From a virus, in the IMG/VR virus record IMGVR_UViG_3300034198_011861, positions 1 to 55,675 of that record: a stretch of 55,675 bases of DNA, one strand, 5' to 3'. The notes under the pieces were generated by a model that searched no databases, was not told the DNA's origin, and was given only the letters and a program-made list of their open reading frames with translations. Positions 4,182 through 29,992 of the stretch are shown here, one piece after another (the stretch's first letter is position 1; every line of letters begins with the position of its first letter). A program made the translations under genes and the position numbers.

Positions 4182-5448
4182 ATTGGGGTAGGTAAGTTAA
4201 AATACTATTGCCACGACTGGCTTCTAGCTGTTTAAGATAAGTCACAAGATCCGGTAATCTTGAGCTTTCATCTTCTACAGATTCAAGATAATTCAAATAG
4301 CTCGTTGCATCTTGTACAATCTGTTGTTGGAATCGATTTGGGTCTCGAGTGTTGACAATTTGATCACTATCAGCAACCGGGTGAGCAACAATCCAAGATC
4401 TTAAAGTTTCTGTTGCAGACTCACGTTGATGTTTGGGCAATACACTGATTCGAAAAAATGCAGGGTTATCAATAAAATTGCAACTTTCCACTGCCGTGCC
4501 GTGTTGCCAGGCATAGTCATACACTGTGGTCAACTCATGCACAGTCAAACAGGTAGGAGTAATTCTGATCTGAATTAACCATCCTTGTTTGTGTCCCAAT
4601 GCTACCCATCGGTCTAACAATTCTCGAGTACGGGCTTGTTTGCCAGGATATCTTACATAGTCGTTGACAGCAGTTAGCGTTTCTACGCTCATGCCTAAAT
4701 TTACCTGTTGAAATTGTGTCAGTAATTCAACCACTGAATCAGACCACACAGTGAGATTTGTAGTAAAACCAATGCTTATGTTTTTTGCTAGGCCACTATC
4801 AACCAAGGCTGACAATATTTTTTTAAAGCCAGGAGTAATTACAGTTTCGCCGCCAAGGAAATGTAGGTATTGTAAATCGGGACTTTGCGTCAGATCGCGA
4901 ATGAATTGATCCAGTAATTCTGGGTCGTCGCACCAAGCGGCTGGCGGTATCTGGTCAATTAGACCTATACGTTTAAATTCTGTAGCCAGGCTGCTTGAAC
5001 TTTCTGGACCGCAAAATACACAAGCACCATTACAATAGTTACCTAAGTCTATCTGCCAATCAACTACACTTCGAGTAGTACGGCCTTGATTGTTGTTACT
5101 GTAATCAAACGCACTCCGCAATGGTGAACCAGCTAGACTTTTTTCAAAATATTTGTCTTGTACACCAACTTTAAGTAATTGACGTTGTCGACCACTGGGT
5201 TTACCGTGTTGTTCCATGCCATGACAATCACTGCAAATTGCAGGTGCTTTGCCTTGCAACAAATCTGTTCTGAACTCAGACATCCCCTGTTGAAAATATG
5301 TCAATGGTGACATAGTTTTTATATTACGGGTCAAATTAACTCGTGCAGTTCCATTGTGTGTCATCCACCTACAAGGTTCGTAGGTACCCGAATTAGTGAT
5401 TCGCATACTTAACCACGGGCTAGAACAAAATGTTTTTTTAAAACTCAT
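4150..5448 (-). CDS. twitch-domain radical SAM protein
   Basis: 432 residues from the ATG at 5446-5448, which overlaps the clpP stop as TGATG. An N-terminal twitch/SPASM-like part holds FCSSPW at ~7, EPCRW at ~25 and CSDC at 72-75. The radical SAM core has C139, C143 and C146 (CxxxCxxC), the 4Fe-4S site, followed by a glycine-rich HFLGGETVITPGF motif that contacts S-adenosylmethionine. Relatives occur in marine and freshwater phage genomes with unknown substrates. A second, distant paralogue lies at 48175-49320. The overlapping small gene downstream is a candidate partner. Confidence 0.85.
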   Translation of the reverse strand: MSFKKTFCSSPWLSMRITNSGTYEPCRWMTHNGTARVNLTRNIKTMSPLTYFQQGMSEFRTDLLQGKAPAICSDCHGMEQHGKPSGRQRQLLKVGVQDKYFEKSLAGSPLRSAFDYSNNNQGRTTRSVVDWQIDLGNYCNGACVFCGPESSSSLATEFKRIGLIDQIPPAAWCDDPELLDQFIRDLTQSPDLQYLHFLGGETVITPGFKKILSALVDSGLAKNISIGFTTNLTVWSDSVVELLTQFQQVNLGMSVETLTAVNDYVRYPGKQARTRELLDRWVALGHKQGWLIQIRITPTCLTVHELTTVYDYAWQHGTAVESCNFIDNPAFFRISVLPKHQRESATETLRSWIVAHPVADSDQIVNTRDPNRFQQQIVQDATSYLNYLESVEDESSRLPDLVTYLKQLEASRGNSILTYLPQYEDLFRSAGY

Positions 5449-6041
5449 CAATCACGCTTAGATATAATTCGATCAGCCAGACCATATGCTACAGCTTCTT
5501 CTGCACTCATAAAGTTATCACGTTCCATATCTGCAGTGAGTTGTTCAAACGTCTTACCGGCAGTATTGTGTGTAACATAGATTTCTGTTAGGTATTTTTT
5601 CATTTTTAAAATTTCTTGTGCTTGAATCTGAATATCTGTTGCCTGTCCACGGGCGCCACCACTGGGTTGATGAATCATGTGACGAGCATTGGGCAAAATT
5701 AATCGTTTGCCAGCGGCCCCGGCTTGTGCCAAACAACTGCCCATACTACATGCTTGACCCATGACCACAGTTGATATACTGGGTTTGATAAAGTTCATAG
5801 TATCGTAAATGGCCATTCCGGCTGTGACCGAGCCGCCAGGAGAGTTGATGTAAAACAAAATATCACGATCCGGATCTTCCGATTCTAAAAACAACATCTG
5901 AGCAACAATCAAGCTGGCAGTGTGTTCGTTGACATCTGTATCCAACATCACAATACGGTCTTTTAACAGTCTTGAATAGATATCGTAGCTACGTTCACCT
6001 TTGCTTGTTTGTTCTACCACAATGGGCACTAGATTTGGCAT
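5448..6041 (-). CDS. clpP: ClpP protease subunit (canonical)
   Basis: 197 residues, the usual ClpP length. Substrate-binding [10 protein letters not shown] is at 66-75, and the catalytic triad is intact: S99 in GQACSMG, H124 in MIHQP and D171 in the [10 protein letters not shown] segment. ClpP forms a barrel that degrades substrates fed by ClpX, which this phage also encodes (35083-36285). The start has a good ribosome site (AAAGGAATCAA), and a sigma70-like promoter at 6100-6128 precedes it. Likely roles are host-protein degradation or head maturation; the sequence does not distinguish them. A divergent second ClpP lies at 8732-9322. Confidence 0.93.
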
Positions 6042-8731: not shown

Positions 8732-9322
8732 TTATTTTTTCATATCACTGATGTAGTCGCAGATGCCCAGTTCCAAAGCTTCTTCTGCACTGAGGTAAAC
8801 ATCATTGGCTGGCAACAACTTGGTCTTGATTGTTTCTTCGTTGAGTCCAGTGGTTTGTTGATAGTGACGAATCATTCGTGTTTGTGCCAACCCAAATTCT
8901 TTTGTGATCGCAAAAAGTTCATGATGTTTGCCATCACTGCCCCACGAATACTGATGACTCAGAATACTGGTATTGGGTGTGAGAATTCTACGTCCGGGAG
9001 CGCCAGCCAAAAATATCAACAAACCGCAACTGGACACAGATCCCAATCCCACTGTTTTGATTGGGATTGAACTGGCTTTCATCACATCAATCAAGGCAAA
9101 CGCATCTTCCATTGATCCACCGGCACTGCAGATCATCAGCAGTAGCTCTTTTTTCTTTTTCTTGGCCACATGATTTTCCACCAAAATCCACTCAATAATG
9201 GGCTTGATGGTTTCGCTAGCGACGTTGTCCATGAACACATACATGCCAGCATCTTGAAGAAGCTCGCTGTGGTCTTTGTCTACAAAGTTAATGTCTTTTT
9301 CCAGGGGCATTGGGTGAACCAT
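8732..9322 (-). CDS. ClpP-family serine protease, divergent
   Basis: 196 residues with the ClpP fold signature but clearly different from the gene at 5448-6041: CSAGGSMEDAFALID replaces NSPGGS, the putative nucleophile is S98 in GSVSSCG, the histidine is H123 in LSHQY, and D174 lies in PANDVYLSAEEAL. The triad is therefore intact. A poly-lysine patch (KKKKK) sits at 54-58. It may be the capsid maturation protease, a role taken by ClpP-like enzymes in some phages, or a second subunit of a mixed Clp complex. Ribosome site AAAGGACAC supports the ATG at 9322. Confidence 0.85.
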   Translation of the reverse strand: MVHPMPLEKDINFVDKDHSELLQDAGMYVFMDNVASETIKPIIEWILVENHVAKKKKKELLLMICSAGGSMEDAFALIDVMKASSIPIKTVGLGSVSSCGLLIFLAGAPGRRILTPNTSILSHQYSWGSDGKHHELFAITKEFGLAQTRMIRHYQQTTGLNEETIKTKLLPANDVYLSAEEALELGICDYISDMKK

Positions 9323-11531: not shown

Positions 11532-12248
11532 CTATTTTGGCAAAACTGCTCTGGGTTTTGCAAGCCCTAAAGTTTCAAGTATGCGTATATACATCCAACC
11601 AATATCAAACTCCCACCAACGCTGACTAAACTTTGGATTTGCACCATCTGCATGGTGTCCATTGTGTAACTCCTCACCGCCGATCCAGAACGCCCAGGGA
11701 ATCAAATTGGTTGAAGTATCTGGTGTATTGGTATTTCTATATCCCCACCAATGTGCTAGACCGTTGATAACTCCGGCTGCCCAAAATGGTACCCAAATCA
11801 TCTGAATACCCCAAATTACAAACCCCCACCAACCAAACAAAGCTAGATTGATCAACAACATAATCGAGATACCCAGACGGCTATGCTTGCTGTAGATGTT
11901 GCGTTCCGCCCAATCATCAGGAGTACCAATGCCTAGTCGTTCAACCATGTCACGGTCTTTGCTGGCTTCGTGATACAAAAACGCACCACTAAACAACACA
12001 CGCTTGATACCGTGTATTTGTGGTGAGTGCGGATCTCCTTCTTGATCACTGCGTTGATGGTGCCGGCGGTGTATAGCTACCCACTGTTTTGTCACCATGC
12101 CTGTGGTTAGCCAAAGCCAAGCTCGCATAAAATGATTAACTGCTGGGTGAAATGTCACTGCCTTGTGAGTTTGTGATCTATGTAAGTATAGAGTAACACA
12201 GGCTATAGTGATTTGTACCATCACCAAGGTATAGATTAGTTCAGTCAT
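11532..12248 (-). CDS. membrane fatty-acid desaturase
   Basis: 238 residues with the three histidine boxes of the acyl-lipid/acyl-CoA Delta9 desaturase class: HRSQTH at 23-28, HRRHH at 60-64 and HNGHH at 195-199, which hold the di-iron centre. Hydrophobic segments near 5-22, 41-53, 125-160 and 184-191 fit an integral membrane enzyme. It is shorter than bacterial DesC-type enzymes (~300-390 residues) but all ligands are present. It follows the GNAT gene by three bases. Expected effect: double bonds in host acyl chains, changing membrane fluidity during infection. Confidence 0.88.
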   Translation of the reverse strand: MTELIYTLVMVQITIACVTLYLHRSQTHKAVTFHPAVNHFMRAWLWLTTGMVTKQWVAIHRRHHQRSDQEGDPHSPQIHGIKRVLFSGAFLYHEASKDRDMVERLGIGTPDDWAERNIYSKHSRLGISIMLLINLALFGWWGFVIWGIQMIWVPFWAAGVINGLAHWWGYRNTNTPDTSTNLIPWAFWIGGEELHNGHHADGANPKFSQRWWEFDIGWMYIRILETLGLAKPRAVLPK

Positions 12249-17090: not shown

Positions 17091-17605
17091 AGATGTCCTG
17101 TGATTTGCAAAGTATATCTTGGTTGTAATCCAATGTTGGCTGCCATGTGCGGAGTGTCGTGGATCCACTCAACCACTTGCCCTGCTTGCCAGTCAACTAT
17201 CGGACGATCCATGACTTCAAGATAATGACCAGATTTCCAATCCTCCAACAATACCAGAGCACGACGTATGAGATGCTCCTGGCCAGCAAGATCAAATAGC
17301 TCAATGTAACGTCGATATAGGTCGCTGTGAACTGGCATTACTGTTCCAGTATCCATACGATAATAAGAAACGCCAATGTCTTTCCATCCTAGATCAGCAT
17401 AGTATTCAACAAAATGATGATTCCAACTAGGTAGTCTGTGGCGCATGTCTGCCATGGCTCCGCATATCTTGGATTGATATCCTTGGCTGATCCACTGGTT
17501 GACACTAACAGGATCATTAAAAGGCTCATAGATATAATTGAGCCCTTTGAACTCATCATCCCAAAATACTTCTAGGTTATATTCACTGATTGCGTGTGTT
17601 ACCAT
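17087..17605 (-). CDS. putative 2OG-Fe(II) oxygenase-like protein
   Basis: 172 residues. H93-x-D95 in MPVHSDLY, a distal histidine (H153 in DTPHMAAN) and R163 in QPRYTLQITG have the spacing of an iron-binding facial triad plus a 2-oxoglutarate-binding arginine in a cupin-fold dioxygenase, similar to aspartyl/prolyl hydroxylase relatives. It overlaps the upstream dehydrogenase by 23 bases and the amidinotransferase by four, so all three are translated together. A hydroxylation in the same pathway is likely if the family call is right. Confidence 0.55.
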   Translation of the reverse strand: MVTHAISEYNLEVFWDDEFKGLNYIYEPFNDPVSVNQWISQGYQSKICGAMADMRHRLPSWNHHFVEYYADLGWKDIGVSYYRMDTGTVMPVHSDLYRRYIELFDLAGQEHLIRRALVLLEDWKSGHYLEVMDRPIVDWQAGQVVEWIHDTPHMAANIGLQPRYTLQITGHL

Positions 17606-18824
17606 AGTGTACTACGTTGATGTTGGGCATGTCCACGGGCAACTGGCGCCACGGATCCACAATAACTGAACCTGATTTGATTTCGCAATACGGCTTGGTG
17701 GCTTCCTGTTCGCCTGTGTATTCGTAAGTTATTCGGCGATTGTGTGCCCATAAAAATACAGCTGGCAAGTCCACACTTGCGACCACATTGGTTGCATCAT
17801 CTGCCAACGGATCAACATAGGTCACACGATGACCGGCCTGTTCAACATAGTGCCCAACCAAAGTTGAATAGCTTCCAATACAATAAGGAACATCTGGCTT
17901 GTATGCTTTGCCGTGAATCACAATTGGTAAGTTGTTTTTTTGTGCTTGTACCACCAAGAACAATGCCAAGTTTTTGGCCTGGATTTCTCTGGCATGCATG
18001 ATTGTGTCAAATAAATCATATCCAACTTCGTATTCCTGTGCTAACCAACGTAAGGCAATATTATCACGCGGATGACAGGCACCTGCATCGCCCATGCCTG
18101 CTGTCATGTACTTGGGTCCCATGATACGCATAGTTGATCTTGCTAGAGCATTGGTTACAACATCAACGTTGATGTTGCCAATTTTAAGTGCAAAGTCTTG
18201 AATCATGTTGGCCAGTCCAACTTTGGCACTAATAAATGTGTTGTAAAAAATTTTGATTGCTTCGCATTCGTCCCACGTACCAATTTCGTAACGTGGATTG
18301 TTTTGCATGATAGTCTTGTAGATATCAATCAACTCACCAGCCAATGTATTTGGGTTACCGTCCTCTGTGCCAATCATGATCATTTCTGGATTGACCATGT
18401 CCCATTTGACTGATCCCATGGCAATCAAATATGGATTGTACAGGAACTGATGTTTTTTATCCAACAAGGTAATAAAGTGTCGACGTGTTGTTCCCGGCAA
18501 TACAGTAGAAATCAGTACGACTTTTTTGGGAGTGGTAGCGTATTGGTTGACTTTTTGCAGTGCATCTTTGACTGCATCATGTCCAAAATCTTTGGGTGCC
18601 ATGTGACTTGATGGAACCGACCCATCATAGCCTTCTTCGTGCGGTGTTGGTACCGCAATAAAAATCCATTCGCTTTCGTTGACAGTTTCTTCAATGCTGC
18701 AAACTTTTACCTGGTCACTGGTTCTTGGGTAAATATCAAAGCCGCGTACAGTGTGTTTTTCTGCCATTACTTCAGCACAGTCCAGGCCAAGTTTTCCTAA
18801 ACCAATAAATCCTATATTTTTCAT
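17583..18824 (-). CDS. UDP-glucose/GDP-mannose dehydrogenase family enzyme
   Basis: 413 residues, full length for the family. The NAD-binding site is GFIGLGKLGLDC at 4-15; VPTPHEEGYDG marks the nucleotide loop; the central domain has an EAIKIFYNTFISAKVGLAN helix (lysine plus asparagine) and GDAGACHPRDNIAL with the catalytic cysteine; the C-terminal domain has HGKAYKPDV and YVDPL for the UDP-sugar. It should oxidise an NDP-hexose to the uronic acid or a related product. It is the first gene of the coupled four-gene operon. Its ATG is three bases from the start codon of the divergent gene at 18828. Confidence 0.85.
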   Translation of the reverse strand: MKNIGFIGLGKLGLDCAEVMAEKHTVRGFDIYPRTSDQVKVCSIEETVNESEWIFIAVPTPHEEGYDGSVPSSHMAPKDFGHDAVKDALQKVNQYATTPKKVVLISTVLPGTTRRHFITLLDKKHQFLYNPYLIAMGSVKWDMVNPEMIMIGTEDGNPNTLAGELIDIYKTIMQNNPRYEIGTWDECEAIKIFYNTFISAKVGLANMIQDFALKIGNINVDVVTNALARSTMRIMGPKYMTAGMGDAGACHPRDNIALRWLAQEYEVGYDLFDTIMHAREIQAKNLALFLVVQAQKNNLPIVIHGKAYKPDVPYCIGSYSTLVGHYVEQAGHRVTYVDPLADDATNVVASVDLPAVFLWAHNRRITYEYTGEQEATKPYCEIKSGSVIVDPWRQLPVDMPNINVVHYGNTRNQ

Positions 18825-20099: not shown

Positions 20100-20102
20100 T
20101 TG

Positions 20103-22154
20103 ATGTTCAAAAAAGTTCTACTTAGCTCCTGGACTGCTCTATTAACCCTTGTGTTGATAGTGGGCATACGTGTAGCAGATCCCTCATTTGTCGAAAGCGT
20201 AAGACTACGGTATTTTGACACGCTGATTACTGCCAAAGCTCCAACTGAGAATAACATCTATACTGTCAACATAGATGAAGCCGCGCTAGACAAATATGGC
20301 CAGTGGCCTTTACCGAGAGATCAATATGCTAAAATCATTCAAGATTTGTATCAGCGTGGTGCTGGTGTTGTGGTTCTTAATGTGCTTATGGCTGAGTCTG
20401 ATCGCACCGGTGGAGACGTTGTACTAGCCAACGCACTAAAACAATACCCTGTGGTGCTTCCTAGTGTGCCCGGTGACAAAACAAAGAACAATCCACGACA
20501 ACCCGGGTCAGCTGTTATTGGTGCCGAGTACACTGATCTAATTGTACAGTATCCGGGATTAATTGCCAACGTTCGAGCTCTGGAAACCGGTGCAGTCGGA
20601 GTTGGTATTGTAAACACCTTGCCCGAAGTAGATGGTGTTAATCGTAGACTACCCATGGTAGTTGCTGTCAACGGACGAGTATATCCCAGCATGGCCATGG
20701 AGACTCTGCGTGTAGCCGCAGGTGATTCAACGTTTCAAGTCAAACTATCAGAAATTGGCGTAGAAAAGATGCGCATTCCGGCCGTTGGAGCTATCACCAC
20801 AGACAACCTAGGACGTGTATGGGTTGATCTAAGTCAGCAATCAAAGTCGGCGAGTTTAATGAACTTACCCAAAGACTTTGGTGGGGCTATTGTCATAGTC
20901 GGAGCAACGGCTGCTGGTATCGCCAACCCTGTTCCTACTGCCAAAGGTGCTGTATGGCCGCAGGAGTTTCAGGCCATGGCCATTGGCACAATGATCAATG
21001 GTGTGGTCATTGCCAGACCAGCATGGGCCAACGGTGCTGAACTTTTGACAATGTTGGCTGTTGGTGTTGTACTATTATTTTTAACAAGGTGGACTTATGT
21101 TGGTATTGCGTCGGTTATTGGTTTCATTGCTGTATTTGCGTATGGCAGTTACTTTATGTTTAGCAGTAGTCTTTGGCTATTTGACATTACCGGGCCAATC
21201 GCAGGAGTTGTCCTTGTTGCGCTCCATGCTTACGGAGTCAAGTTTGTTTCAGAGTTCTTACAAAAGCAACAGATAAAGAAACAGTTTGGCACATACCTAT
21301 CGCCAGCTATGGTAGAAAGGTTACAGCGGAATCCAGAGCTACTACAACTAGGTGGTGAGTCAAGAGAACTTTCGATTATGTTCACTGACGTTCGTGGATT
21401 TACCACAATCTCAGAACACTATGGCAAAGATGTACAAGGCTTGACCCGAATCATGAATCGCTACATGACAGCCATGACAGCAAAAATTATAGAGAACCAA
21501 GGTACCTTAGACAAGTATATTGGTGACGCACAGATGGCTTTTTGGAACGCACCCCTGGATGATGCTGACCATGCCAAGAATGCTGTGCGTACAGGTTTAC
21601 AAATGATGGGAAGTTTAGATGCATTCAATCAAGAAATTACAGCAGAAGGCATACCAGCTTTTGGTATGGGTCTTGGGATTAATACTGATACCGTTGTGGT
21701 CGGGAACATGGGCAGTGATCAGCGGTTTGACTATACTTGTCTCGGCGATGGCGTCAACTTGGCAGCTCGTCTGGAAGGGCAAAGCAAGCCGTACGGTGTC
21801 AAAATCGTACTGGGCCCGAAGACGGCGCAACTGGTAAAAGACGAATATTTTGTGCTTGAGCTAGATTGTATAGCAGTCAAAGGCAAAAAAGAAGGTGTAA
21901 CAATTTACACAGTGCTGGGTCGTAACAACGAGATCAATCTAGACAAAGGTGACGTGCAAATGCACGAAGCTATGTTGGTATTGTATCGTCAACAACGGTT
22001 TGACCAAGCCATTAAGTTCTGCCAAGACCTCAAGGGCAGATTTGCAGGTGAGATGGACCAATACTACGACGCTTGGATAGAGCGTTGTGAGGAGATGAAA
22101 CATGTTGAATTACCAACAGATTGGGACTCAGTTTACAGAGCAGTTTCAAAATAA
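20103..22154 (+). CDS. CHASE2-domain class III adenylate cyclase
   Basis: 683 residues from the ATG at 20103. One N-terminal membrane helix (~8-24) is followed by a periplasmic CHASE2 sensor (~30-310; RYFDTLITAKAP, VNIDEAALDKYGQWPLPRDQYA), a cluster of membrane helices (~315-390) and a cytosolic cyclase domain (~420-590). The cyclase has metal-binding FTDVRGFT, a DKYIGDAQMAFWNAP loop, FDYTCLGDGVNLAARLEGQSK with the Asn/Arg catalytic pair, and VKGKKEGVTIY. All active-site motifs look intact, so cAMP synthesis is expected. A C-terminal TPR-like helix pair follows. CHASE2 cyclases are normally bacterial sensors; one in a phage is unusual. Confidence 0.9.
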   Translation: MFKKVLLSSWTALLTLVLIVGIRVADPSFVESVRLRYFDTLITAKAPTENNIYTVNIDEAALDKYGQWPLPRDQYAKIIQDLYQRGAGVVVLNVLMAESDRTGGDVVLANALKQYPVVLPSVPGDKTKNNPRQPGSAVIGAEYTDLIVQYPGLIANVRALETGAVGVGIVNTLPEVDGVNRRLPMVVAVNGRVYPSMAMETLRVAAGDSTFQVKLSEIGVEKMRIPAVGAITTDNLGRVWVDLSQQSKSASLMNLPKDFGGAIVIVGATAAGIANPVPTAKGAVWPQEFQAMAIGTMINGVVIARPAWANGAELLTMLAVGVVLLFLTRWTYVGIASVIGFIAVFAYGSYFMFSSSLWLFDITGPIAGVVLVALHAYGVKFVSEFLQKQQIKKQFGTYLSPAMVERLQRNPELLQLGGESRELSIMFTDVRGFTTISEHYGKDVQGLTRIMNRYMTAMTAKIIENQGTLDKYIGDAQMAFWNAPLDDADHAKNAVRTGLQMMGSLDAFNQEITAEGIPAFGMGLGINTDTVVVGNMGSDQRFDYTCLGDGVNLAARLEGQSKPYGVKIVLGPKTAQLVKDEYFVLELDCIAVKGKKEGVTIYTVLGRNNEINLDKGDVQMHEAMLVLYRQQRFDQAIKFCQDLKGRFAGEMDQYYDAWIERCEEMKHVELPTDWDSVYRAVSK

Positions 22155-22493: not shown

Positions 22494-22652
22494 ATGAAAC
22501 AAGAAAAACTTGTTCAAAAGCTGTATCGGGCCTGCTTCGACCACGACGCCGAGAAGATTGCAAAACTTCGCCAAGAAGAATTTGCCAAAATCTTGAAACG
22601 CAAGGCCGAAGGCAAGTCTTTTACTGCTGAGTGGACTGTTGTACAGATATAA
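22494..22652 (+). CDS. small phage protein, 52 aa
   Basis: ATG at 22494 after a very strong ribosome site (AAGGAGGAGTAAGCC). 52 residues, charged and helical ([20 protein letters not shown]), ending [10 protein letters not shown]. The C-terminal motif recurs, as I recall, in short proteins of T4-like phages. Its last 32 bases overlap the end of the converging GT4 gene. Function unknown. Confidence 0.65.
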
Positions 22653-23628
22653 GACTGCGTTGAAATATGTGCCAACAGGCTTCCCAGGTCCATCGTTGAG
22701 AAGCTTGTTGAACTCTGTTGCGATCTAACAACAAGCAGTGTTCCACAGCCGTGATTAGATTTTCATCCATCCATCCATTGATACCATTTTCCACAACATC
22801 TATGGGTCCTTGCACAGGAAATGCTGCCACTGGAGTGCCTTGTGCCATGGCTTCAATCATTACCAAGCCAAAAGTATCAGCTCTGCTGGGAAACACAAAC
22901 ACATCGGCGTTGTAGTATTGATTCACTAGATCTTGTCCTTGCTTGTAACCCAGGAACAATGCATTGGGTAACAATCTCTGTGCTTCTTCCCTATAGGGGC
23001 CATCACCAACTATGATTAGAAAATAACGATTCTGTATTTCGACCAGTTGATCTAGTCCTTTTTCGGGACTGACGCGACCCACACACAACACAATGGGCAA
23101 GTGTTTGTGGTCGACTCGTAGGATATTGGGTTCAATAGATCTATCTACTCCGCGAGCCCACACAGTGAGATTTTTAAATCCGTGTGAGTGTAAATCTTTG
23201 CGTATGGTTTCAGTTGTGACCAACACTCTGTGACTGTTTTTGTGAAACCAACGCAGATAAGCATAGGTCCAGCGAGCAGGAACTCCATACATCACAGATA
23301 AGAACTTAGGAAAGTCAGTGTGATAGCTAGTGTTATAACTATAACCATTACGCTCACACCACCAGCGAGCAAAAAGGCCCACAGGTCCTTCTGTAGCGAT
23401 GTGTATAAAGTCCGGCTGTATCTCCTTAATTTTTTTTGAGATACCCCAGGGCCACGAGAGCTTAACTTCAGGATAGCCAGGGCAATCACAATGAGGGAAC
23501 TGCCCGGGATCAAGATAAACAACGTCATAGCCGTTGCCAACAGCATGACTTTCCAAGTTTTTGAAAGTTGTGACCACGCCATTGATCTGCTCCTGTGTGT
23601 TGTCCGTGACAATTAATATTTTAGGCAT
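22621..23628 (-). CDS. GT4 glycosyltransferase, Agt-like (diacylglycerol type)
   Basis: 335 residues from the ATG at 23626-23628 ([10 protein letters not shown]); a longer frame adds eight codons. It is a GT-B enzyme: N-terminal [13 protein letters not shown], then [29 protein letters not shown] and WARGVDR, and C-terminal [21 protein letters not shown] and the E-x7-E region [20 protein letters not shown]. This combination is that of the bacterial glycosyltransferases that sit next to plcP and add sugar to diacylglycerol under phosphate limitation. Here it overlaps the Ugd-like gene by eight bases, with the PlcP-like gene just upstream. Confidence 0.85.
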
Positions 23629-24406
23629 TGCGATATTGTTTGTTAGATTCAATAGCAGTAGACAACATAGGCATGTGTACCTGTTGACCTTGGGCTAGAT
23701 AGTTCAATGCTGCGGTATCCTTGGGGAAGCATGCTCCGCCATAGCCATGTTCTCCGTCAGGCCCGGGTACAGCCCAGTGAGTATTGCCCAAGCGGCTATC
23801 TGTTTTGGCAATACTGGACAGTTTGTCCCAATCCAGTTCCAATGCATGAGCCAATACATACAACTCATTGTTCACAATAACCTTCATGGCCAGCATACAA
23901 TTGGCCATGTACTTGAAGTAACTGGCTTCTTCGATGCTACAGTATTCTATTTTTACTCGATCAAAGTTCACAGCACTGGACATCAATATGTCAGTGACTT
24001 CATCACGTAGTTTCTTTCGACATCCTACCACAATCTTGTGTGGGTTTACATAGTCAAACTTGGCACGAGCCTGTGTCAAAAACTCTGGTACATGTGCTAG
24101 ATTTAGATCTAGCTCTTTTTCCAACTGTCTATAAACTGTAGGACTTGCTGTGCTTTTGGCAACAACTATTCCGTTGTACCCAGATAGGCCTGTCAACACC
24201 TGTGTTAATGTTGAGGTATCACACTCGCCTGAGTCAGACTGAGGAGTTGGTACACAAACAAATATAGCACGGCATTTGTCACGAAGTTTGTCTATTGAGA
24301 CCGATTCTGATCCTAGCTTGGGATCATTTATCAAAATCTTGTCGTCAGGATAACTGGCAGCCACTGCCGAGCCAACATATCCATTGCCTATGATACCTAT
24401 TTTCAT
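23621..24406 (-). CDS. short UDP-glucose 6-dehydrogenase-like protein
   Basis: 261 residues. NAD site GIIGNGYVGSA at 4-14, VCVPTPQSDSGECD loop, FKYMANCMLAMKVIVNNE helix with the conserved Lys165, and GYGGACFPKDTAAL with catalytic Cys226. The protein stops ~35 residues later, so the C-terminal UDP-sugar domain of normal Ugd (~390-450 residues) is missing. It is coupled by ATGA to the PlcP-like gene and by an 8-base overlap to the GT4 gene. If active it would make UDP-glucuronate, a donor for glucuronosyl lipids; the missing domain makes this uncertain. Confidence 0.8.
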   Translation of the reverse strand: MKIGIIGNGYVGSAVAASYPDDKILINDPKLGSESVSIDKLRDKCRAIFVCVPTPQSDSGECDTSTLTQVLTGLSGYNGIVVAKSTASPTVYRQLEKELDLNLAHVPEFLTQARAKFDYVNPHKIVVGCRKKLRDEVTDILMSSAVNFDRVKIEYCSIEEASYFKYMANCMLAMKVIVNNELYVLAHALELDWDKLSSIAKTDSRLGNTHWAVPGPDGEHGYGGACFPKDTAALNYLAQGQQVHMPMLSTAIESNKQYRNA

Positions 24407-25164
24407 TTTTCGCTCACAATCTCATTCCAGTATACAATTTCCCAACGACCATCCCAGTGTTCAACCAATGCTGTACAACTTTCTACCCAGTCGCCGTCGT
24501 TCATGTACACAATACCATCAATGTCTCGTATTTCAGCTGTGTGTATGTGTCCACAGATGATGCCATCATAGCCTTTGGTCTTGCAATAGTCAGCCAACAA
24601 TGTTTCAAAGTTTAAGACATACGAAACAGCCTGTTTGGTATTTTGCTTGATCCAGCGACTCATGGACCAGTATCTAAGACCCAATCGAGAACGCACAAAG
24701 GACCATGCATCGTTCAAACGAATAATGATGTCGTACAACCAATCTCCAATGTGCATCAGCACTCGCCCTGAACTGATGTGCATCAATGTGTCAAACATAT
24801 CTCCATGTACCACTAGATACCGACGACCATCCAATCCTGTGTAATCACATCGGTTGACAACTTCAACATTGCCCACTGCAGGAATAAAGTTTAGCCATTT
24901 ACGTAGTACTTCATCGTGATTACCCACAATGTATTTGATTGTAGCACCTCGTTTGGCTGCTGTCAATATTTTACGGACAACGTTTGAATGTTCTTGGGGC
25001 CAAAACCATTTCTTTTGTAGACGCCAACCGTCAATGATATCGCCTACCAGTAATATTGTTTCGGCTGTGTTGTGTTTTAAAAAGTTACAAAGCAAATCTG
25101 CCTTGCATCCTCGGCTGCCCAGATGTATGTCGCTGATACTGATAGTTCTATATTTTGGTTGCAT
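24403..25164 (-). CDS. PlcP/LpxH-like metallophosphoesterase
   Basis: 253 residues with all calcineurin-type metal motifs: SDIHLG (D12, H14), GDIIDGW (D42), GNHDE (N82, H83), VVHGD (H120) and GHIHTAE (H206, H208). The family-specific parts SRGCKADLL, WPQEHSNVVRKIL and GDWVESCTALVEHWDGRWEI match the group annotated as UDP-diacylglucosamine diphosphatase that includes the phospholipase C PlcP, which removes phospholipid head groups to leave diacylglycerol. The Ugd-like and Agt-like genes follow on the same transcript, which favours PlcP over LpxH. The substrate is inferred from context. Confidence 0.87.
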   Translation of the reverse strand: MQPKYRTISISDIHLGSRGCKADLLCNFLKHNTAETILLVGDIIDGWRLQKKWFWPQEHSNVVRKILTAAKRGATIKYIVGNHDEVLRKWLNFIPAVGNVEVVNRCDYTGLDGRRYLVVHGDMFDTLMHISSGRVLMHIGDWLYDIIIRLNDAWSFVRSRLGLRYWSMSRWIKQNTKQAVSYVLNFETLLADYCKTKGYDGIICGHIHTAEIRDIDGIVYMNDGDWVESCTALVEHWDGRWEIVYWNEIVSEK

Positions 25165-25242
25165 ACACTATTTACAGTTTCTGCAACATTGCCCTATTAC
25201 ATTTGTGTTACATTAGAAGGCTTTGATTATCACAAATAACAT

Positions 25243-26736: not shown

Positions 26737-27834
26737 TTACTTTTGTACAATAGTAATCACTGTTGATCCGCCACGATTGATTTGCTGAGTTACTGGTGCG
26801 CTATCTTGCGAAATATTGAGAGTAACATCGGCTTCCTTGTTGATTGTGACCTGTGCAGTGTGCATAGTTTGTCTGCGTAAAATCAGTTTTAATTCGTCTT
26901 CATTGAAACCGTAGGTCAATCCAGATGCCGCATTGTATCCTGGTAACATGGTTTTTTCAGTCAATAGATTTTCTTGACTTTGTGCCAACTGTCGATTAGA
27001 AAGATCCAGCATATTCATCAACATATCTCCGTCGAGGTAGTTAAGGTCTAGATCGCGGAATGCTGCTAACGGATCTTCATCCAATGCGTTGTATTTCAAG
27101 AAGTCTTGATCCAAAAAGTTTATCAATGGATTGTCTCTGGACAGTGCATTAACAGCTTCTTCTATTTGCGGAGGTGGTTGAACAATCAGCATGTTGTTGA
27201 TGTTGGCTTGATCCAACACAATGGTCACAGGAATGCTAGGCATGGCTGACAGACTGGCAACCATGGTGGCTTGATATGCTTGGTCCAGGGTCACTTCGCC
27301 TGCGTCATTTGACACAGTAATGGCACCCGTGACACATCCGCGGTTATCGCAACTGGGCAACAGAATCACAAGACTGCGGCCTAGTTCGTCCACGGTCATT
27401 GAAAAGTCTGTGCCACGTACAGCCACAGTGGCAGTGGGAGTTTTCACATCAACATTCTGTGGGTTGGTCTTGGCAATCTGTCCTGAGGCATACCGAGCTG
27501 TGCCTAACACAACTTTCATGGCAATCTTGCCTGATCCTTTTTTGGGATCATACACAAAGTCATCAATTATCAGTTTTGATTGTTCTGTGATATTGACTGT
27601 GGTGTTGTCTTCGAATGTGAGTTTGGCTTTGGCTCGGGCAGTGACAATGGTGTCATTCATTTCCACAGGAGAATTCACTGAGGATGGCAGTGATTTTTTA
27701 GCACGTACAATTTCTGTTGGACCAGTTTGCTCTGTAATTTTACCTACAGAAGCCAAACTAGTCTGACTGAACAATGCTGACAGTATTGCTGTTGCCAGTA
27801 GTATTGACTGTGACAGTTTTTGCGGTAAGACCAC
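26737..27834 (-). CDS. secreted FecR-domain protein
   Basis: 365 residues from a GTG (27832-27834) with a GGAG 12 bases upstream. Signal peptide ~1-29 (ILLATAILSALFSQTSLA), then a FecR domain at ~30-170 (VNSPVEMNDTIVTARAKAKL, EDNTTVNITEQSKLIIDDF, TPTATVAVRGTDFSMTVDE). The C-terminal half has Asp/Asn-rich helices and a final beta segment. FecR domains here lack the membrane helix of TonB-system sensors; free FecR proteins are often found near CHASE2 cyclases in proteobacteria, and one lies 5 kb away. Its first 77 bases overlap the curlin-like gene, so the two are co-translated. Confidence 0.82.
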   Translation of the reverse strand: MVLPQKLSQSILLATAILSALFSQTSLASVGKITEQTGPTEIVRAKKSLPSSVNSPVEMNDTIVTARAKAKLTFEDNTTVNITEQSKLIIDDFVYDPKKGSGKIAMKVVLGTARYASGQIAKTNPQNVDVKTPTATVAVRGTDFSMTVDELGRSLVILLPSCDNRGCVTGAITVSNDAGEVTLDQAYQATMVASLSAMPSIPVTIVLDQANINNMLIVQPPPQIEEAVNALSRDNPLINFLDQDFLKYNALDEDPLAAFRDLDLNYLDGDMLMNMLDLSNRQLAQSQENLLTEKTMLPGYNAASGLTYGFNEDELKLILRRQTMHTAQVTINKEADVTLNISQDSAPVTQQINRGGSTVITIVQK

Positions 27835-28390
27835 TCTGTGTTACTCCAATTGTGTTTAGATCACCTGTGGCAGTGATAATGGTTGTGCTTGCGCCGCTGT
27901 TGGTGCTGGTATGGGTCACTGTGTTGGTGTCTCCGCTAATGTTGACAAAACTTGAGTGGTTAGCACCTGTGCCCAAGTTCTGTGTGATCACGTTGTTGTC
28001 ACCGGCAACTTGCTGGTTAATTACACTACCACTACAGCCAGCACTTTGCGTGGTTCCACAATTGATCACACTTTGGTTGCCTGAACCAGTAATACTCACT
28101 GTTGAACTAGTTGATGCACCATTCAACACCATGGCCAACTTATTGTTGCTGCCAATTTGTTCAATGATTACTGAGTTAGAACCGCCACCAACAAAAGCAT
28201 CAAGTCCTGCGCCCGGCTCTCCGACTCGGTTGCCTGTGCCATCTTGTGTGATGGTTATGGAGGAATTGTCACCAACTTGTTCAATGTAAATTTCGTTGGC
28301 AGAAACACCGCTAGACAACATCACTGTTGCCAGCAGTATGGCGGATATATGTTTGACCAATTCACCAACATTTGTTAATCTTGTTTTCAT
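27758..28390 (-). CDS. curlin-like secreted repeat protein
   Basis: 210 residues from the ATG at 28388-28390 (an upstream TTG would add four codons). Signal peptide ~1-31 ending SGVSA. The mature part has curlin-type units with the Q-x-G-x2-N pattern: IEQVGDNSSITITQDGTGN, IIEQIGSNNKLAMVL, INQQVAGDNNVITQN and ITATGDLNTIGVTQSG. Such repeats stack into amyloid fibres outside the cell. Export would go through the CsgG/CsgF pair encoded just upstream. No separate CsgB nucleator, CsgC or CsgE is seen, so this one subunit may self-nucleate or use host factors. Confidence 0.78.
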   Translation of the reverse strand: MKTRLTNVGELVKHISAILLATVMLSSGVSANEIYIEQVGDNSSITITQDGTGNRVGEPGAGLDAFVGGGSNSVIIEQIGSNNKLAMVLNGASTSSTVSITGSGNQSVINCGTTQSAGCSGSVINQQVAGDNNVITQNLGTGANHSSFVNISGDTNTVTHTSTNSGASTTIITATGDLNTIGVTQSGLTAKTVTVNTTGNSNTVSIVQSD

Positions 28391-28446
28391 TTTATTCAAC
28401 AAATCGAGTTGGCAAACATATTAGTCTGTACCCCGATCCTCTCCCT

Positions 28447-28464
28447 GGTCTTTGAGACCTTTTT
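28447..28464 (+). terminator. possible plus-strand terminator between csgG and curlin gene
   Basis: GGTCT-TTG-AGACC followed by TTTTT on the plus strand. All genes here run on the minus strand, so it would stop antisense transcription or act as an mRNA hairpin before the curlin-like gene. Confidence 0.35.
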
Positions 28465-28484
28465 ATCATTATATTTACAGGATA

Positions 28485-29549
28485 TCATGGTTTCATTAAC
28501 CTGTCGCTTTTGACCCAGCCTCGACGACCAACTGAGTCTTGCACTGCCATCCACGAGTCCGGTCCTGGAGTCACTGTTAACTCTGTGTTTTCTTTCAACA
28601 TCCATGTACGTTGACTACGTTCGTTGGGTTCTTTGTAGATGTAAGACGCTTCACGAAGTTTCATAGTTGACACTGACTCTTTGACCACTGCGGGTGGTTT
28701 GATTTCTGCCACTGGTTCTACAACCACCGACGTTGCTGTTGTGGTTGCAGGTACAGCAGATACAACATTGTTGGCTAGTTGTTTGTACTTCCACAGGCCT
28801 TTCTTTTCGCCTTCCACAATCATTTCGTAAACGGCCTGTTCAATGGCCACACGTACAGCATAGGTAGTAGGCTCATTGAGTGCTGCGCCTGATTCAAGTT
28901 CCAGACTTCTAGTTCCTTGATCCACAAATCTCAACACACTGACATTGTGCTGAGTACTGTAGATAGTTTTTGACACTGCCACATTCAACAACACTTCGCC
29001 GGAAGATATTGAAATTAGTCTAAGACTGATTACAATTTCATCCACACGATATTGTTGACTTCCACCGATACCCAAAAATCTAGCACCATTACCACCTGAT
29101 CGAATGTTGCTGTCATATCCAATAATGCCGCCTTCCAAGATCAAGCCGGCTACTGTGAGTGGCTTCAAAGGTTTGGCTTCTTTGCCCTCATAGACTTCAC
29201 GCTGATTTCTTATGAGTTGACGCTCTTTGATCAAGTTGTCCAGACCCACACGTTCAACAACTCGAAACCATTTTTTTGAGTCTTGTAAACTCTTGATCAA
29301 AAACACTTCGGATCCTTGTGTGACTGCACTGGAGAACAGAGCTAGATTTGTACTGGATTTTTTTTGTCCTGTTAGATCTTTGAATCCATACACTGCCACT
29401 GTCATGGGAGCACCATCCAATTCTGGCAGTTTGGTCAACAAGTTCTCTCGAGGGTTCAACGCAATAGGATCTTCCTTAGCTAGATCCATGTGAATCTGAG
29501 CACACCCCGACAGTGTGATTGCAACAAAAAAGATTAGCAAGTAGCGCAT
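28485..29549 (-). CDS. csgG: CsgG curli secretion channel, with extra C-terminal SH3-like domain
   Basis: 354 residues. Lipobox LSGC (Cys16). The CsgG core is clear to ~270: MTVAVYGFKDLTGQKK, WFRVVERVGLDNLIKERQLI, LTVAGLILEGGIIGYDSN, VDEIVISLRLISISSGEVLL and YAVRVAIEQAVYEMIVEGEK. CsgG forms the nonameric outer-membrane pore for curli subunits. An added C-terminal part (~275-354) is a linker and a bacterial SH3-like domain (LREASYIYKEPNERSQRTWM, DSVGRRGWVKSDRLM) that could bind cell wall or virion. TAATG junction with csgF. Confidence 0.92.
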   Translation of the reverse strand: MRYLLIFFVAITLSGCAQIHMDLAKEDPIALNPRENLLTKLPELDGAPMTVAVYGFKDLTGQKKSSTNLALFSSAVTQGSEVFLIKSLQDSKKWFRVVERVGLDNLIKERQLIRNQREVYEGKEAKPLKPLTVAGLILEGGIIGYDSNIRSGGNGARFLGIGGSQQYRVDEIVISLRLISISSGEVLLNVAVSKTIYSTQHNVSVLRFVDQGTRSLELESGAALNEPTTYAVRVAIEQAVYEMIVEGEKKGLWKYKQLANNVVSAVPATTTATSVVVEPVAEIKPPAVVKESVSTMKLREASYIYKEPNERSQRTWMLKENTELTVTPGPDSWMAVQDSVGRRGWVKSDRLMKP

Positions 29550-29992
29550 TAGAATGCAAAACTCCCTATGGGTACAGTAACCGTGGTAACTCCACCAGCG
29601 GCTTCTCTAATAGTCAGCGTAACGTCTGTGCCAGTTTTGATCCAAGAGATGTTGGTGCCTTGGAACGCCATTTCTCCTGAATTGGCGCCGTCACTGAACA
29701 TAGCATCTGCCAGTTGCTTTGAGAGTTGAGCATAAATTCTAGACTCTACGTTGACTAAAAATTTAGCCAGATTGGTATTTTTAGCATCTCGTGCCACCTG
29801 ATCCGCAGCTGATTTTTCTGCATCTTTGATGGTCTTGCGTCGGTTGGCTTCTAATTGCTCAATGGTCAACACATGGGTTGAATACCCATTGCCCGGTATA
29901 AATGCTGGAGACTGGAAAGAGTGGACCAGCTCTGTGGCCCATGCCGTTGCTGAAAAAACAGCGACTATTGTTATTGTTATTATTTTTTTCAT
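29549..29992 (-). CDS. csgF: CsgF curli assembly factor
   Basis: 147 residues. Signal peptide ~1-19 (MKKIITITIVAVFSATAWA), then ELVHSFQSPAFIPGNGYSTH, the CsgF N-terminal peptide (SFxxPxF) that inserts into the CsgG channel, followed by a helix and a C-terminal beta domain ending VTVPIGSFAF as in CsgF. Length is normal. Its ribosome site lies inside a 13-bp stem-loop (29994-30024), so translation may be regulated. Order csgF-csgG-curlin is compact. Confidence 0.9.
   Translation of the reverse strand: MKKIITITIVAVFSATAWATELVHSFQSPAFIPGNGYSTHVLTIEQLEANRRKTIKDAEKSAADQVARDAKNTNLAKFLVNVESRIYAQLSKQLADAMFSDGANSGEMAFQGTNISWIKTGTDVTLTIREAAGGVTTVTVPIGSFAF

Follow-up and report, generated by a model that had tools for sequence, protein, structure and literature searches.

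A Putative plcP-ugd-agt Cassette for Membrane-Lipid Renovation in a Large Phage

Phages are rich in phosphate, an element that is limiting in many bodies of fresh and sea water. The responses known from phages consist of uptake and nucleotide recycling; phospholipids constitute a large cellular pool of the element. Whether a phage might also draw on that pool is the question raised by three adjacent genes in IMG/VR virus record IMGVR_UViG_3300034198_011861, a linear fragment of 55,675 bp that is here called the window. The genes, plcP, ugd, and agt, would encode a phospholipase C, a uridine diphosphate (UDP)-glucose dehydrogenase, and a glycosyltransferase, and they probably represent a phage-encoded version of the PlcP-Agt lipid-renovation system of bacteria, switched on by the phosphate-starvation regulator of the host.

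The Three Genes of the Cassette

All three open reading frames (ORFs) are present in the ORF list of the window, on the minus strand and in the order plcP-ugd-agt. The first (24403-25164) encodes a calcineurin-like phosphoesterase of 253 amino acids (Pfam Metallophos), the second (23621-24406) a compact UDP-glucose 6-dehydrogenase-like protein of 261 amino acids (Pfam PF03721 and PF00984), and the third (22621-23628) a GT4 glycosyltransferase of 335 amino acids (Pfam Glycos_transf_1/Glyco_transf_4). The ORF listed for the last gene spans 22621-23652, its TTG start adding an N-terminal extension not seen in relatives; the ATG at 23628 is the start that agrees with their alignment. From that start, the genes overlap by 4 bases (24403-24406) and 8 bases (23621-23628), as a preliminary description of this locus, made from the sequence alone, had said of three coupled genes.

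The phosphoesterase is 46-48% identical to PlcP of Pseudomonas aeruginosa and 49% identical to a Sinorhizobium meliloti protein adjoining sinI/sinR-like genes (acyl-homoserine-lactone synthase, LuxR-type). This is probably the position of SMc00171, the first characterised PlcP. In a maximum-likelihood tree, a branch with 100/100 support divides all viral and bacterial PlcPs from the seven LpxH sequences included; both the S. meliloti and the P. aeruginosa protein fall together with that of the window, and the PlcPs include deep, mostly viral clades. P. aeruginosa PlcP and its downstream glycosyltransferase have been identified as PA3219 and PA3218 (PMC8528852). The metal-ligand-type residues D12, H14, D42, N82, H120, H206, and H208 are kept in all 106 viral and all 85 bacterial homologs. 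LpxH is the top match in NCBIfam but a weak one (36 bits, against a curated cut-off of 134), and in six bacterial genomes a true LpxH (220-300 bits) is found alongside PlcP, the latter being a second, low-scoring gene. A sequence search of PDB with the phosphoesterase gave no match. The window protein is on these grounds assigned as a PlcP-type phospholipase C, and the phylogeny bears out the preliminary preference for PlcP; an identity as LpxH is rejected on the tree split and the scores. Among the sequences in the tree, the PlcP of a 3.7-kb contig from a Hyphomonas metagenome-assembled genome (L140; the L numbers denote compared loci), 62% identical to that of the window, clusters with phage PlcPs, and the contig is probably a mis-binned phage.

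The glycosyltransferase was searched against all genes of 20 bacterial genomes. Its best genome-wide match was the plcP-adjacent gene in 19 of them (E 1e-66 to 1e-81); in the twentieth this gene came a close second behind a paralog, and the remaining GT4s, a few Agt-like paralogs excepted, lay at about 1e-10 to 1e-15. Identity is 38-42% to the PlcP-adjacent Agt enzymes (38% to P. aeruginosa Agt1) and 20% to WaaG. H103, D251, and the motifs GRVSPEKG and FPSRADTFG (catalytic His-Asp and UDP-sugar motifs) match those of GTcp from SAR11, where GRVAXEKN and FPSXTDTFG occur with a catalytic His-Asp pair (PMC8231724). The predicted product is therefore placed as an ortholog of the Agt-type (diacylglycerol) glycosyltransferases encoded beside bacterial plcP, in agreement with the preliminary assignment. 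A lipopolysaccharide (LPS) or capsule reading of the enzyme is rejected on the genome-wide best-hit test.

Distribution among Phages and the Promoter Element

One scan of viral contigs yielded 125 PlcP relatives, and 80 loci were kept for neighbour counts, from which those retrieved by way of the GT4 query are left out. In 66 of these 80 loci, plcP is followed within 1.8 kb and on the same strand by a glycosyltransferase gene (GT4 in 40, GT2 in 26), a frequency at which the arrangement is not due to chance, and pstS lies within 5 kb in 13. By NCBIfam, PstS scored above the cut-off in L040 and L106, and in L039 and L131 it was recognised through a broader PstS subfamily, below that model's cut-off. 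A terminase gene is carried by 10 of the 11 plcP-bearing contigs longer than 190 kb that were tested. The cassette is widespread in large phages of lakes and seas, and its genes are under purifying selection, with ratios of nonsynonymous to synonymous substitution (dN/dS) of about 0.01-0.17 in sampled pairs. A more distant PlcP relative is found in Synechococcus phage S-SRM01.

The composition of the cassette varies. GT2 genes that stand in place of GT4 after plcP (e.g., L043 5105-5815, L020 8737-9444, L039 5520-6290) suggest an alternative lipid glycosyltransferase. Elsewhere a gene for a RimK-like ATP-grasp ligase directly follows plcP, sometimes separating it from GT4 (L005 7113-7997, L017 8786-9670, L042 2926-3816, L066 8746-9633, L089 7126-8007); the ligase perhaps aminoacylates a lipid or a protein. 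The position of the cassette also differs between otherwise syntenic phages (24403-25164 in the window, 7080-8996 in L106), as if it were a mobile module.

Upstream of the window plcP, the sequence TGTAACACAAATGTAATA consists of two TGTAAYA copies 11 nt apart and ends 30 nt before the start codon. This direct repeat, TGTAACA-CAAA-TGTAATA (25195-25212, minus strand), is the window's sole exact match to TGTAAYANNNNTGTAAYA. The frequency of TGTAA pairs was compared, for each period from 6 through 22 nt, between the regions preceding viral plcP and those preceding the other genes of these loci, and period 11 stood out by far (37/85 for plcP, 23/1394 for the others). Ten of the 23 control matches proved to belong to pstS promoters; once these are counted separately, TGTAAYA-N4-TGTAAYA precedes 37 of 85 plcP genes, 10 of 12 pstS genes, and 13 of 1382 others (Fisher p about 6e-39 for viral plcP and 1e-17 for viral pstS, both overstated because the loci are partly related). 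The motif-positive plcP loci are spread over many distinct PlcP clusters. The TGTAA motif was chosen after the upstream sequences had been viewed; the tests on pstS and on Burkholderiales are independent checks. Two positive controls behaved in the same way: bacterial plcP peaked at period 11 (40/82, against 20/414 other genes), as did the pstS promoters of Burkholderiales (25/30), several with the TGTAA form. The published Pho box, CTGTCATNNNNCTGTCAT, likewise has an 11-nt period (PMC8528852), and the element at 25195-25212 is therefore best read as a putative host Pho box. The window cores, TGTAACA and TGTAATA, differ from the canonical CTGTCAT; cores of the TGTAA type are also found upstream of some pstS genes in Burkholderiales. 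A search for the strict form CTGTCATANNNNCTGTCATA found no match, and a scan for sigma-70 promoters gave matches no more often than chance. Control of cyanophage genes by host PhoBR is a known precedent (PMC10976474). The phosphate-starvation logic that had been proposed for the locus is backed both by the neighbouring pstS genes and by this element common to phage plcP and pstS.

Proposed Phosphate Salvage and Its Alternatives

The identity and orthology of the genes, their conserved pairing, the purifying selection on them, and the presence of the promoter element are established; from these we infer PhoB control, enzyme activity, phosphate reuse, and a benefit to the phage, in the following sequence. 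When a starved host is infected, its PhoB would bind the TGTAAYA repeat and transcribe plcP-ugd-agt. PlcP would strip the phosphate headgroup from phosphatidylglycerol or phosphatidylethanolamine to leave diacylglycerol, as is known for the enzyme, and Agt would add glucose and/or glucuronate from UDP-sugars, so that the bilayer is kept as glycolipid. The freed headgroup phosphate could then enter phage DNA. In the least certain step, UDP-glucuronate produced by the compact Ugd would shift synthesis towards an acidic glucuronosyl lipid, a possible stand-in for acidic phospholipids. The PstS that related phages encode next to the cassette would contribute phosphate uptake. For this full scheme of host-PhoB-controlled salvage during lytic infection, with phospholipids converted to glucosyl or glucuronosyl glycolipid, Ugd setting the charge, and PstS adding uptake, we consider the case evenly balanced.

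Several observations count against salvage by lipid renovation. The C-terminal UDP-binding domain (PF03720) has no Pfam match in the compact Ugd, and a ugd gene is found in only a few cassettes. Neither GT4 nor GT2 lies just downstream of plcP in 14 of the 80 viral loci, and no pstS occurs within the window. Fewer than half of the viral plcP loci have the Pho-box-like motif, and TGTAA outnumbers the textbook TGTCA among its cores. With a Pho-box matrix of the Escherichia coli type, the window plcP promoter did not stand out (rank 11 of 68). The phylogeny that had been proposed for the glycosyltransferase, built with LPS and colanic acid GT4s of E. coli as distant outgroups, was poorly resolved, with very long branches; orthology therefore rests on the best-hit test, which does place the enzyme with Agt. 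Lastly, the catalytic Asp of the DTFG motif, kept in the window, is Glu in 17 of 69 viral GT4s (e.g., L003, L008, L060), a change that cut the activity of SAR11 GTcp by over 90% (PMC8231724). Phages with this variant may use a different donor or acceptor.

The proposal is at its weakest with Ugd. The compact protein comprises NAD-binding and central domains only and ends after the central helix. Its AlphaFold model has a mean predicted local distance difference test (pLDDT) score of 93.2, and the best Foldseek matches of the model are UDP-glucose dehydrogenases (template modelling score, TM, 0.84). T86, E108, K165, N169, C226, and D230, the catalytic residues, are invariant among phage relatives, and the aligned relatives are similarly short (about 243-293 amino acids); compact Ugds are a form known from Campylobacter phage F379 and Microbacterium phage Fireman. 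The nearest relatives (62%) are in L109, a phage contig of 329 kb, where they follow PlcP and GT4 (PlcP-GT4-ORF-Ugd), and a more distant one is in L039 (PstS-PlcP-GT2-ORF-Ugd). Most other compact phage Ugds sit among sugar-metabolism genes. The short dehydrogenase of the preliminary description is sustained by the predicted fold and by the conserved catalytic residues, and called into question by the missing domain and the small number of cassettes that have it. A supply of UDP-glucuronate by this protein is plausible.

It is a real possibility, if one that we lean slightly away from, that lipid renovation takes place with glucosyl-diacylglycerol as the only product, Ugd being inactive alone or serving another sugar pathway. 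The truncation and rarity of Ugd would fit such an outcome, as would the strict use of UDP-glucose by P. aeruginosa Agt1 (PMC8528852) and the presence in the window of a second, longer UDP-glucose dehydrogenase-like gene (17583-18824, minus strand; 413 amino acids). Against it stand the complete and conserved catalytic residues of the compact protein, its confident fold, its overlapping gene ends on both sides, and its repeated association with PlcP and a glycosyltransferase; moreover, UDP-glucuronate serves GTcp almost as readily as UDP-glucose does (PMC8231724). A glucosyl-only product is a sub-variant of lipid renovation, and the probabilities of the two overlap. The longer gene, whose match to phrog_9148 (E=4e-89) covers nearly the whole profile, recurs near plcP-GT4 in the related phages L063, L083, and L093 at 60-83% identity and is a possible alternative source of UDP-glucuronate.

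The main alternative to phosphate release is envelope change: the same enzymes would make glycolipids, and the benefit would lie in an altered membrane or surface, through the blocking of rival phages, resistance to envelope stress, or the timing of lysis. Glycolipids do alter the envelope behaviour of P. aeruginosa and protect against polymyxin (PMC8528852), phage glycosyltransferases and Ugd have been read as surface modification in work on pelagimyophages (PMC7029224), and the sugar-metabolism setting of most short phage Ugds would suit the same purpose. The pstS neighbourhood and the shared promoter element point instead to phosphate, and surface glycosylation needs no phospholipid-specific PlcP; we regard a purely envelope-directed role as unlikely. 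An LpxH-type lipid A enzyme acting with an LPS or capsule GT4 to alter host LPS would accord with the top NCBIfam match and with the annotation of a homolog in phage Mosig (see below), yet it is highly improbable in view of the LpxH split, the coexistence of PlcP with true LpxH, the Agt orthology, and the low identity to WaaG. Equally little credence attaches to a transient, functionless acquisition by hitch-hiking, for which one may cite the many host-derived genes of aquatic phages and the shift in cassette position between the window and L106, and which is disfavoured by the low dN/dS values, the invariant metal-ligand-type residues, and the deep, mostly viral clades of PlcP.

Related Systems and Neighbouring Genes

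Bacterial PlcP-Agt systems are represented by PA3219-PA3218 of P. aeruginosa, plcP-GTcp of Candidatus Pelagibacter HTCC7211, PlcP of S. meliloti, and Agt of Agrobacterium tumefaciens. The phage cassette shares with them orthologous PlcP and GT4 proteins (about 40-50% identical), plcP-then-agt order, overlapping or adjacent gene ends (overlapping in P. aeruginosa, as in the window), catalytic residues, and a Pho-box-like element upstream. It differs in being phage-encoded, in the ugd gene inserted between plcP and agt in the window, and in the pstS, GT2, or RimK-like ATP-grasp genes that other phages add. Cyanophage phosphate-stress genes (pstS and others, under host PhoBR; PMC10976474) resemble it in their apparent control by the host phosphate regulon, and pstS often adjoins the cassette in related phages; those genes serve uptake and nucleotide recycling, whereas the window cassette would draw phosphate from the membrane.

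Among isolates, Pelagibacter phage Mosig EXVC030M, which infects SAR11, is the only one of the pelagimyophage/Melnitz kind with a plcP match. Its gene Mosig_00120 encodes a PlcP of 53.5% identity and adjoins a gene for a putative phosphate ABC transporter, with no adjacent Agt or Ugd. The product is annotated as UDP-2,3-diacylglucosamine hydrolase, a misannotation that explains how phage plcP could be overlooked. Term searches of the Mosig, Melnitz, and pelagiphage papers turned up no phage PlcP or lipid-renovation cassette, and no description of either was found in the open-access literature searched, so that novelty is provisional. The preliminary statement that no phage version had been described holds in that no paper was found, but the cassette is widespread and a plcP had already been deposited, misnamed, in Mosig. 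Phage phosphate-stress auxiliary genes and bacterial PlcP-Agt are both already known, and what is new is their combination. If the proposal is correct, the membrane would be a source of phosphate open to viruses, phages tapping it without breaking the membrane would shift estimates of burst size and phosphorus flow, and lipid biomarkers taken as signs of bacterial phosphate stress could partly reflect infection.

A gene for a shortened DesA-family fatty-acid desaturase (11532-12248, minus strand; 238 amino acids, against about 400 in bacteria; NCBIfam NF049918, above cut-off) may be a second membrane-lipid gene in the window. Desaturases of this family occur near plcP-GT4 in the related phages L083, L089, L091, and L093, and near plcP in L007. 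The window protein is 51-61% identical to Burkholderiales DesA, which is compatible with a Burkholderiales host but is not proof of one.

Other genes of the window encode ribonucleotide reductase (RNR), GroEL, DNA ligase, UvdE, curli proteins CsgG and CsgF, and a CHASE2 cyclase, and the window is syntenic with terminase-bearing contigs of up to 357 kb; this gene content and synteny assign it to the large phages that bear curli genes. A window protein without assigned function has 70-71% matches in two contigs of 317 and 337 kb. The csgF, csgG, FecR, curlin-repeat, and cyclase genes are shared with pelagimyophage/Melnitz-type phages; Melnitz has no plcP-agt in the stretch inspected, and the window relatives with shared gene order are the contigs of up to 357 kb. 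In the window the CsgF, CsgG, curlin-repeat, and FecR genes lie at 26737-29992 (minus strand) and the CHASE2 cyclase gene at 20100-22154 (plus strand), and in L082-L084 a cyclase gene is directly 3' of plcP-GT4. Two ClpP-type protease genes are also present on the minus strand, at 5448-6041 (as read from sequence only) and at 8732-9322 (confirmed by Pfam).

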